Shown: piece after piece, positions 14,512 through 29,358 of the stretch
How the letters are laid out: each line of letters opens with the position of its first letter
How positions within the stretch are numbered: position 1 is the stretch's first letter
NCBI RefSeq assembly: GCF_001548115.1
Contig: NZ_AP014821.1
Location: 1,364,001-1,428,000, forward strand
DNA length: 64,000 nucleotides
Source of the DNA: Geminocystis sp. NIES-3709
Lineage (GTDB): Bacteria; Cyanobacteriota; Cyanobacteriia; Cyanobacteriales; Cyanobacteriaceae
Direction: 5' to 3'
Position numbers and translations under genes: made by a program
Notes under the pieces: generated by a model
Databases searched by the model: none
Told to the model about the DNA's origin: nothing
Seen by the model: only the letters and a program-made list of their open reading frames with translations

Positions 14512-14770
14512 CTTAAAGTATGTAGGTTTTTAATTAGAGAATATTTAATAAAAATTTTATATTTTGCTAGTATAGCAACCAAAAACCACTTTAGATAACC
14601 TAAGATTGTATTATATTTTCGTCATATTTTCATTCAGTTGTTGACTGACATATTCTACATCAATACTTTTCAAACAGTTTCTAAGACTATGGTTAAATAG
14701 TAAAGGTTTTGATTTTTGCTTAATCAGGTGCAAGATCTGAGTGAAACGTATATAAGACAAGAATTAGAGG
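14512..14770. other. Intergenic region between hrcA and the miniature transposon
   Basis: The hrcA promoter should be here. The stretch holds TATAGCAACC at about 14571, like the ends of the small repeat family in this window. On the minus strand an open frame runs from 14760 (TTG) to a stop at 14611-14613, with 49 codons. It could be a fragment of a gene or chance, and I recognise no protein in it. The last 8 bases, ATTAGAGG, recur directly after the transposon. Confidence 0.5.
14763..14770. repeat. Left copy of 8-bp direct repeat flanking the transposon
   Basis: ATTAGAGG directly abuts the TGTACA end at 14771 and is repeated exactly after the other end. It looks like a target-site duplication, but it is 8 bp and not the 5 bp usual for Tn7-like elements. 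Confidence 0.75.
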
Positions 14771-14963
14771 TGTACAGTGCCAAATTAAATGACGTGATGA
14801 CAAATTACTGTCATCGACTATAACTCTTACTAAATAATCATTATAGCTGTTTTCTCTCATTTTCGCTCCCATGAAAGTGCTGACAAATTCAATGTCACTT
14901 TATTGATTGAAGACAAATTAAGTGTCATTTTCCTTGTGAAGTGAAATGACAAATTAAGTGTCG
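14771..14963 (+). repeat. Distal transposon end with five transposase-binding-type repeats
   Basis: Sites lie at 14771-14793 (terminal), 14798-14813, 14881-14897, 14911-14927 and 14947-14963. The inner four read TGACAAATTA-type half, short spacer, TGTCA or TGTCG. A gap of about 65 bp separates the outer pair from the inner three. By memory, that spacing is like the right end of ShCAST. Confidence 0.85.
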
Positions 14964-15072
14964 CTTTTTCCCTGTCAAATATATTCATGATAAATATTGT
15001 GTTTTTTTAATACACATTCAGAATTTTGAATACAATAAAGTTTTAAGTGATTTCGGACGGAATATAAAAGCG

Positions 15073-15405
15073 ATGGCAAAAAAAATTTATGAAGTCTTCC
15101 AATCATTAGAAAACAAGGCTAACCTCCTTGCAGGTTACTGGGATAACTTCAAAACGGAGATCATCCAGCATTTACCAGAATCCTATCATGGTGAAATAGA
15201 GGAACTCTCTAACAACCTACAGAAATCTTTAGAGGTATTAATCGATGAATTGCGCCATCCTACCCTGATTTTAGCGACGACTGGCACCACGAGCAGTGGT
15301 AAAAGTACCTTAGTTAATTTTTTATGTGGGGCAGATATTGTGCCTACTGCGGTAAGTGAAATGAGTGCAGGATCTGTTACGATCGCACCTAAATTAAATA
15401 AATAG
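15073..15405 (+). pseudogene. Truncated dynamin-family GTPase (N-terminal part only)
   Basis: This 110-codon frame encodes an N-terminal helical segment (about residues 1-65). A dynamin-type P-loop follows, GTTSSGKST (about 71-79), and then the switch-I region 'VPTAVSEMSAGSVTI'. Dynamin-like GTPases normally continue for several hundred residues with the G3 and G4 motifs, a middle domain and an assembly domain. Here the frame ends in Lys-Leu-Asn-Lys directly after G2. The stop lies next to the crRNA-like unit, as if an internal deletion removed the rest of the gene together with the transposition genes. It may be transcribed but cannot be a working GTPase. It is cargo of the miniature transposon. 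Confidence 0.8.
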
Positions 15406-15407
15406 GG

Positions 15408-15452
15408 TATAATCAACTCAAGATAGATTGAAAGGAGTGCTGCGATCTCACC
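15408..15452 (+). CRISPR. Solitary homing crRNA unit (repeat remnant plus one spacer)
   Basis: A TATAAT at 15408-15413 could serve as the -10 box. It is followed by a degenerate repeat ending GATTGAAAG (15426-15434), the same kind of 3' end as V-K CAST repeats (GGTTGAAAG/GATTGAAAG). The next 18 bases (15435-15452) form a spacer that equals the tRNA-Ala gene at 15624-15641 on the minus strand in 17 of 18 positions. No second repeat follows. This is the form of the delocalised homing guides known in V-K CASTs. No tracrRNA was found in the element. Confidence 0.82.
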
Positions 15453-15467
15453 TTATAATTTCTTCAA

Positions 15468-15578
15468 CGACATTAATTTGTCACTACCACCTCAATGACA
15501 AGAATTTGTCATCACGACACTTAATTTGGTACAATGACAGTAATTTGTCACGGATGACAATTAATTTGGCACTGTACA
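15468..15578 (-). repeat. tRNA-proximal transposon end with five transposase-binding-type repeats
   Basis: Sites lie at 15555-15578 (terminal), 15535-15550, 15515-15531, 15496-15511 and 15468-15483, closely and regularly spaced. Each is a variant of TGACA-N6-TGTCA in inverted orientation relative to the other end. The tight series differs from the gapped distal end, which matches the asymmetry between left and right ends of Tn7-like elements. Confidence 0.85.
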
Positions 15579-15586
15579 ATTAGAGG
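15579..15586. repeat. Right copy of 8-bp direct repeat flanking the transposon
   Basis: ATTAGAGG directly follows the terminal TGTACA at 15573-15578 and copies 14763-14770. It ends 3 bp before the tRNA-Ala discriminator base at 15590. Confidence 0.75.
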
Positions 15587-15589
15587 ATA

Positions 15590-15662
15590 TGGAGTATAGG
15601 GGAATCGAACCCCTCACCTCTGCGGTGCGATCGCAGCACTCTACCAAATGAGCTAATACCCC
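15590..15662 (-). tRNA. tRNA-Ala, anticodon CGC
   Basis: This 73-nt gene without an encoded CCA folds as a cloverleaf. The 7-bp acceptor is GGGGTAT/ATACTCC and includes the G3:U70 pair that marks alanine tRNAs. The D-arm is GCTC/GAGT with loop ATTTGGTA, the anticodon stem CTGCG/CGCAG carries loop ATCGCAC, and the T-arm is AGGGG-TTCGATT-CCCCT. The discriminator is A. The anticodon stem-loop contains a HIP1 octamer (GCGATCGC) and is the target of the homing spacer of the neighbouring element. The transposon lies just beyond the 3' end and leaves the tRNA intact. Confidence 0.95.
15624..15644 (-). other. Protospacer and PAM of the homing crRNA inside tRNA-Ala
   Basis: On the minus strand, GTA at 15644-15642 is followed by the 18-nt protospacer 15641-15624, covering tRNA positions about 22-39. 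GTA fits the GTN PAM of Cas12k. The transposon edge (15578/15579) lies 63 bp downstream of the PAM, within the 60-66 bp reported for ShCAST. The single mismatch to the spacer is at the central anticodon base. Confidence 0.85.
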
Positions 15663-15673
15663 AACATAACTTT

Positions 15674-28074: not shown

Positions 28075-29358
28075 ATGAATATTATTGTAGTCGGACTTTC
28101 CCATAAAACCGCCGCCGTTGAAGTACGAGAAAAATTGAGTATTCCTGAAGCCAAAATCGAAGAATCGATAAAGCATCTTCTTAGTTACCCTCATATCGAA
28201 GAAGTTGGTATTATCAGTACTTGCAACAGGCTTGAAATTTATGCTGTGGTAAAAGAAACGGAACAAGGAGTTAAAGAAATTACTCAATTTTTAGCAGAAA
28301 TAGGACATCTGTCTTTACACCATTTAAGACGACATCTATTTATTTTATTACATCAAGATGCAATTCGTCACTTAATGCGAGTTTCTGCGGGATTAGAAAG
28401 CCTTGTATTAGGGGAAGGGCAAATTTTAGCCCAAGTCAAAAATACCCATAAATTAGCTACAAAATATCAAGGTATGGGACGACTACTCGATCGACTTTTC
28501 AAACAAGCCATTAGCGCTGGAAAAAGGGTGCGTACAGAAACAAATATAGGTACTGGTGCTGTTTCTATTAGTTCGGCGGCGGTGGAATTAGTGGATACCA
28601 AAGTAGATGACTTATCCTCTCAAAAAGTGTCAATTATTGGTGCGGGAAAAATGTCTCGGTTATTAGTGCAACATCTTGCCTCAAAAGGGGCTGATAATAT
28701 TGCTATTGTAAATCGTTCTACCAGTCGATCGCAAGAACTCGCCAAACAGTTTCCCCAAGTTAGCTTACAGCTTCATCCCCTCGAAGATATGATGACAGTG
28801 GTGAGGGAATCAGATATAGTGTTTACTAGCACTGGTTCAATGGTGCCTATTCTTGATAAAAATAATCTCTCCAATATAGAAGCATCTCGATCGATCATGT
28901 TAGTGGATATTTCTGTCCCTCGCAATGTTTCCAGTGATGTGGCAGAATTAGATTTTATAATTTCCTATAATGTTGATGATTTGAAAGCGGTAGTTGCTCA
29001 AAATCACGCTAGTCGTCGAGAAATGGCAAGAGAAGCAGAGATATTATTGGAAGAAGAAATCGAGGCTTTTGAGTTGTGGTGGCAATCCTTAGAAACCGTG
29101 CCAACTATTAGCTGTTTACGCAGTAAAATTGAAGAAATTCGAGAACAAGAATTAGAAAAAGCCTTATCCCGATTAGGTTCAGAATTTGCCGAAAAACATC
29201 AAGAAGTAATAGAAGCCTTAACCAGAGGTATTGTTAACAAAATTCTACATGATCCTATGGTACAGTTACGAGCTCAACAGGATATTGAAGCTCGGCGCAA
29301 GGCTTTACAGACTTTACAAACTTTATTTAACCTTGAAATTAGCGAACAGTTTGGTTAA
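28075..29358 (+). CDS. hemA: Glutamyl-tRNA reductase
   Basis: HemA reduces glutamyl-tRNA to glutamate-1-semialdehyde, the first committed step toward haem, chlorophyll and bilins. The 427-residue protein has the nucleophilic Cys50 in STCNRLEIY, the '[16 protein letters not shown]' block, the NADPH-binding region [11 protein letters not shown] and a C-terminal dimerisation helix domain. It is convergent with the phycobilisome linker gene, whose pigment it ultimately supplies. Confidence 0.97.

Follow-up and report, generated by a model that had tools for sequence, protein, structure and literature searches.

Anchor spacers, or delocalised homing crRNAs, of type V-K CRISPR-associated transposons (CASTs) are described in PMC9938897 and PMC11656645 and by Hsieh and Peters 2021, as cited in PMC11406308. 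According to the first of these sources, a distance of 46–82 nt is allowed between the PAM and the left end (LE) of the element, and by convention the end with densely packed sites is the LE and the looser one the right end (RE). The second describes CAST variants that have lost the CRISPR array and retain the delocalised crRNA alone, and the third states a 5-bp target duplication for all Tn7 relatives.

The window (the whole 64,000-bp stretch of DNA that was analysed) contains an arrangement of this kind. A truncated repeat, R* (AAGATAGATTGAAAG, ending GATTGAAAG; positions 15420–15434, plus strand), is followed in the window sequence by GAGTGCTGCGATCTCACC at 15435–15452. The anchor (homing) spacer, GAGTGCTGCGATCTCAC (15435–15451, plus strand), was taken as 17 nt, which is probably the usable length since it is the usual one for published V-K anchor spacers (PMC9938897). 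It matches the tRNA-Ala(CGC) gene at 16 of 17 positions (17 of 18 over 18 nt), the single mismatch falling at spacer position 14. This attachment gene (15589–15663, minus strand; found by ARAGORN and as Rfam tRNA) is intact. The protospacer read within it occupies 15625–15641 (15624–15641 for the 18-nt match) and is adjoined by a GTA PAM at 15642–15644, both on the minus strand; 63 bp separate the PAM from a TGTACA terminus at 15578. As can be seen, R* and a spacer of ca. 17 nt lie just inside the LE and are read toward it, the tRNA gene that the spacer matches lies just beyond the LE, the PAM conforms to GTN and the distance falls within the published range of 46–82 nt. The first-pass annotation had proposed a V-K homing guide aimed at the adjacent tRNA-Ala gene; the guide sequence, its coordinates, the tRNA match, the PAM and the edge distance all hold in the window sequence, and layout, PAM and distance fit the architecture given in PMC9938897. 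The repeat tail likewise proved to be conserved, the same R* being present in many related V-K loci.

The guide–target pair was also recovered unprompted, as inverted pair I5, by a repeat search of the window. We scanned for GAAAG followed by 17 nt with a GTN-flanked target at no more than one mismatch within 700 bp; the window yielded a single case, and neither its reversed sequence nor any of six shuffled versions gave one. A search of genome contigs with the exact guide pattern returned no match, and a relaxed pattern retrieved 14 guides of the tRNA-Ala type. Thirteen of them carry GATCGCAC, and the remaining guide, on the contig of G117, has A at position 14; a mismatch there is therefore atypical of tRNA-Ala guides. 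In a list of 28 V-K anchor guides, roughly two in three differ from the neighbouring tRNA at one or two bases, chiefly at positions 7, 9–10 and 14–17.

The earlier annotation gave the guide only; here the bounds of its carrier are added. The whole non-autonomous element is 808 bp long (14771–15578, plus strand) and runs from TGTACA to TGTACA, both termini being located by the end finder, and its terminal inverted arms (14771–14791 and 15558–15578) are 21 nt long and 95% identical in the repeat search. Direct copies of the 8-bp sequence ATTAGAGG flank it at 14763–14770 and 15579–15586 (plus strand, read from the sequence), as against the 5 bp that PMC11406308 states for all Tn7 relatives. Once one repeat copy is removed, the joined flanks can be aligned with unoccupied tRNA-Ala sites in G008 and G011, both of the same genus. 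The end beside the tRNA gene (15464–15578, minus strand) contains five closely spaced TnsB-type sites, according to the end finder and site comparison. The opposite end (14771–14969, plus strand) has looser sites at ca. 14778, 14798, 14881, 14911 and 14947; positions 1–199 of the element match the RE of the full CAST G063:C117 (69%) and positions 1–161 the RE of G009 (73%). With the dense end as LE and the looser one as RE, the orientation of the element and the placement of its guide are canonical by the convention in PMC9938897.

Between these ends there is no tnsB, tnsC, tniQ or cas12k, the sole gene content being a truncated GTPase gene, and no CRISPR array was found within the element. 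A search of the element's own genome for a tracrRNA of the G008 type gave matches only inside two other loci, CAST A and CAST B. At 808 bp, lacking Tns and Cas12k genes, tracrRNA and array, the element is not a complete type V-K CAST; it has both transposon ends and no transposase, as a non-autonomous (MITE-like) element does. The earlier description of a defective element is borne out.

The truncated gene (15073–15405, plus strand) encodes ca. 104 codons of a dynamin-like GTPase of ca. 809 amino acids, followed by six codons outside the homology; Dynamin_N gives a weak match in the fragment and a clear one in the 809-aa homologue. That full-length homologue is chromosomal, near psaA/psaB, in a genome of another family (G105) and has 86% DNA identity to the fragment, and no close copy of the piece was found elsewhere among 15 genomes of the element's own family; the piece is therefore probably foreign cargo. 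A deletion junction lies at GTTACGAT (15376–15383, plus strand), where similarity to the GTPase gene gives way to similarity to G008; this microhomology occurs both in the G105 GTPase gene and ahead of the anchor guide in G008.

Indeed, the Cas12k locus of G008 has an LE region 90% identical over 225 bp to that of the window element and carries the same guide, the spacer being identical, position-14 mismatch included. In this locus (G008:C1, LE at 28652), tniQ is retained along with part of tnsC and a cas12k gene that has one in-frame stop; tnsB was not found there. The locus lies apart from the intact tRNA-Ala gene and adjoins a 23-bp remnant of tRNA-Ala. Since an identical guide sits in a Cas12k locus, the window guide was inherited from a larger CAST, and we infer that the element is an internal-deletion derivative of a CAST with this guide. 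In G009, the related CAST (G009:C1, ca. 869.97–884.84 kb) is complete and targets tRNA-Val, and in G010 an LE remnant that has lost its guide lies at the same tRNA-Ala gene. The distance from terminus to PAM is 63 bp for the window element, ca. 61 for G010 and ca. 56 for G008 (the latter two counted by eye); the differences suggest separate homing events, although small indels could also explain them.

A perfect TATAAT, a putative -10 box (15408–15413, plus strand), starts 27 nt before the guide. To place this in context, we considered 30 distinct V-K anchors that lack a fused tracrRNA; they include related loci, so that their independence is incomplete. A perfect TATAAT starting at -27 to -29 is present in 12 of the 30, and 17 have a match of at least five of six TATAAT positions between -32 and -18, where shuffling predicts 7.7 (p ~0.0005). 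No good candidate for a -35 element was identified. Since the box is located as in many other V-K anchors, the guide possibly forms a small transcription unit by itself, with RNA that would start at or near R*; expression of the guide is thus a prediction. The accessible portions of PMC9938897, PMC11656645 and PMC11406308 do not mention a -10 box belonging to the guide in their descriptions of V-K anchors.

R* of the window element would form eight contiguous Watson–Crick pairs with the anti-repeat of the G008/G009 tracrRNA, as expected of a V-K homing guide paired with a tracrRNA of cognate type; R* of G008 itself forms ten with the same anti-repeat, and a single change relative to G008 accounts for the shortening. 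For comparison, R* of CAST B forms seven contiguous pairs with its own tracrRNA. The tracrRNAs resident in the element's genome offer the window R* only five (CAST A) and four (CAST B) bases.

A separate observation concerns CAST A and its relatives, in which a second tracrRNA copy, diverged from the canonical one (ca. 71% identity), is fused to the anchor guide. Such loci are L027:17440–18850 on the minus strand (C1:689440–690850 of the element's own genome), L039, L046, L035 and L008. The fused copy, which is 94–96% identical in G008, G009 and G011 and ca. 83% in G001, is predicted to fold as anti-repeat, short loop, R* and spacer, and is possibly a natural single-guide RNA; a search of the open literature found no report of such a fusion.

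The guide had been called solitary, which is true at this locus but not genome-wide, where two cas12k loci each have their own anchor guide. CAST A, at a tRNA-Arg gene, has all its genes uninterrupted. In CAST B, at a tRNA-Thr gene, tnsB is split by an IS630-like ORF, tnsC is partial and no match to TniQ was found in the stretches examined. The product of the interrupting ORF (332 aa, L160:6273–7271) resembles an IS630-type transposase. TnsB sites of both resident CASTs are of the TAACA type (TAACAAATTA-type), whereas those of the window element, G008 and G009 are TGACA/TGCCA (TG[A/C]CAAATTA in the window element). The only cognate-type TnsB sequence in the genome is a 102-bp gene fragment with 88% amino-acid identity. 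Given the difference in site type, the weak pairing of R* with the resident anti-repeats and the interrupted tnsB of CAST B, the element appears incompatible with the resident CASTs, and its mobilisation by either is judged unlikely; with 57% identity between the TnsB proteins of CAST A and G009, some cross-mobilisation by CAST A is still conceivable. With the resident site type and tracrRNAs mismatched and the cognate TnsB reduced to a fragment, the element looks orphaned in its own genome.

A search for similar elements covered 391 sampled genomes of the order. Among the matches listed, the combination of RE, GTPase piece and LE is confined to the element's own genome, where it has one copy, rather than the several expected of a MITE. 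No plasmid copies were found in PLSDB. Anchor loci devoid of cas12k are common among the relatives retrieved, and when LE loci of this kind were run through the end finder, no other mini-element with a guide and two facing ends was found; two facing ends were detected only in the window element and in a complete CAST in L085. This survey covered loci other than L132 and L139, several tested loci had little inner sequence, and the end-finder pattern may miss a diverged RE. In the open literature, bioRxiv and subscription papers being outside the scope, no papers on non-autonomous V-K elements were found.

Several other loci came to light. L132 and L139 have an anchor guide, tnsB and tnsC and no cas12k match in the stretch retrieved; they may depend on Cas12k supplied in trans, or they may be in decay. 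L174:8382–8581, from another cyanobacterium, is MITE-like: it spans 200 bp, has two facing ends of the V-K type and lacks a guide. At L082:6144–6827, two LEs in the same orientation lie beside a tRNA with a V-K CRISPR array stranded between them, and there is no cas12k in the 12 kb retrieved. At L085:4780–5000, a full CAST lies with its RE directly against the LE of an older element, whose anchor guide is kept but mutated; this is tandem use of one tRNA site.

Most probably, the window element is a non-autonomous CAST that homed and was later orphaned. In the explanation that we favour with good confidence, a larger CAST carrying this guide would have been directed to tRNA-Ala by RNA-guided homing and inserted at 63 bp from the PAM, and internal deletions, either before or after insertion, would have removed tnsB, tnsC, tniQ, cas12k, the tracrRNA and the CRISPR array. 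What remains comprises all the cis elements expected for transposition, i.e., both TnsB-site ends, and the anchor crRNA gene, apparently its own transcription unit with a -10 box placing the RNA start at or near R*. Given a cognate helper CAST of the G008/G009 type, mobilisation in trans and re-homing by the element's own guide would be possible in principle; in its own genome, the element is probably stranded.

A narrower, function-free version of this explanation, whose probability overlaps with that of the whole, is that a full CAST inserted and simply eroded in situ, leaving guide and ends as functionless relics. We give this somewhat better than even chances. Decayed CASTs are common in relatives, as the cas12k-less LEs, broken cas12k and the guide-less LE of G010 attest, and the change in R* cuts the pairing from ten to eight; yet erosion would have needed luck to spare the guide, the -10 box and two complete ends, which is possible but atypical of the other remnants. 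The survival of these parts while every gene was lost would be explained if the mini-element is an active, guide-carrying MITE that was itself moved here in trans by a helper CAST and can move again. The direct repeat and clean flanks fit insertion as a single unit, and the other cas12k-less LE loci run through the end finder have no facing second end. However, a full CAST that underwent deletion in situ would account for all of this too, the genome now has no cognate helper, and the single copy, with RE, GTPase piece and LE together in this genome only among the matches listed, argues against mobility, so that we regard this alternative as improbable. A chance resemblance of a GAAAG-containing stretch to a tRNA, for which nothing speaks except the shortness of the match, can be rejected given the zero shuffled pairs, the identical guide in G008 and the correct PAM, distance and location.

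The most far-reaching proposal, a CAST-derived MITE whose promoter-driven homing crRNA sends it to tRNA-Ala with any cognate V-K helper, is more doubtful still; if it were true, targeting to tRNA-Ala would be independent of the helper's own att site. The suggestion that the element is a guide-carrying parasite of CAST machinery survives in its first half, a guide on a defective carrier. The parasitic half is not supported: there is a single copy in one genome and no sign of movement as a mini-element, and the resident CASTs appear mismatched, so that parasitism of the latter is disfavoured. If the element can be mobilised, it would constitute a naturally occurring minimal CAST donor, with ends and a self-expressed guide in 808 bp, in which targeting information travels on the passenger and not on the helper. 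Even as a relic, it shows that a homing guide is separable from the array, apparently because the guide has a promoter to itself and an R* that fits the anti-repeat of the tracrRNA; this offers a testable account of repeat truncation.

Compared with known systems, the locus resembles the published anchor spacers in R*, a spacer of ca. 17 nt inside the LE, the GTN PAM, the tRNA target and the distance, and differs in having no array, tracrRNA, Cas12k or Tns genes. It shares its LE family and R* type with the Cas12k locus of G008 and the CAST of G009; the former, however, keeps cas12k, a tnsC fragment and tniQ, and the latter is complete and directed to tRNA-Val. Like MITEs, it is short, lacks a transposase, has terminal inverted repeats and needs machinery acting in trans, but it is present in a single copy, has complex multi-site Tn7-type ends and carries its own targeting guide. 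The closest parallel in guide content is the array-less CASTs, whose guide set is also reduced to the homing crRNA; as described in PMC11656645, those have lost the array, whereas the window element has lost the effector and transposase genes as well.
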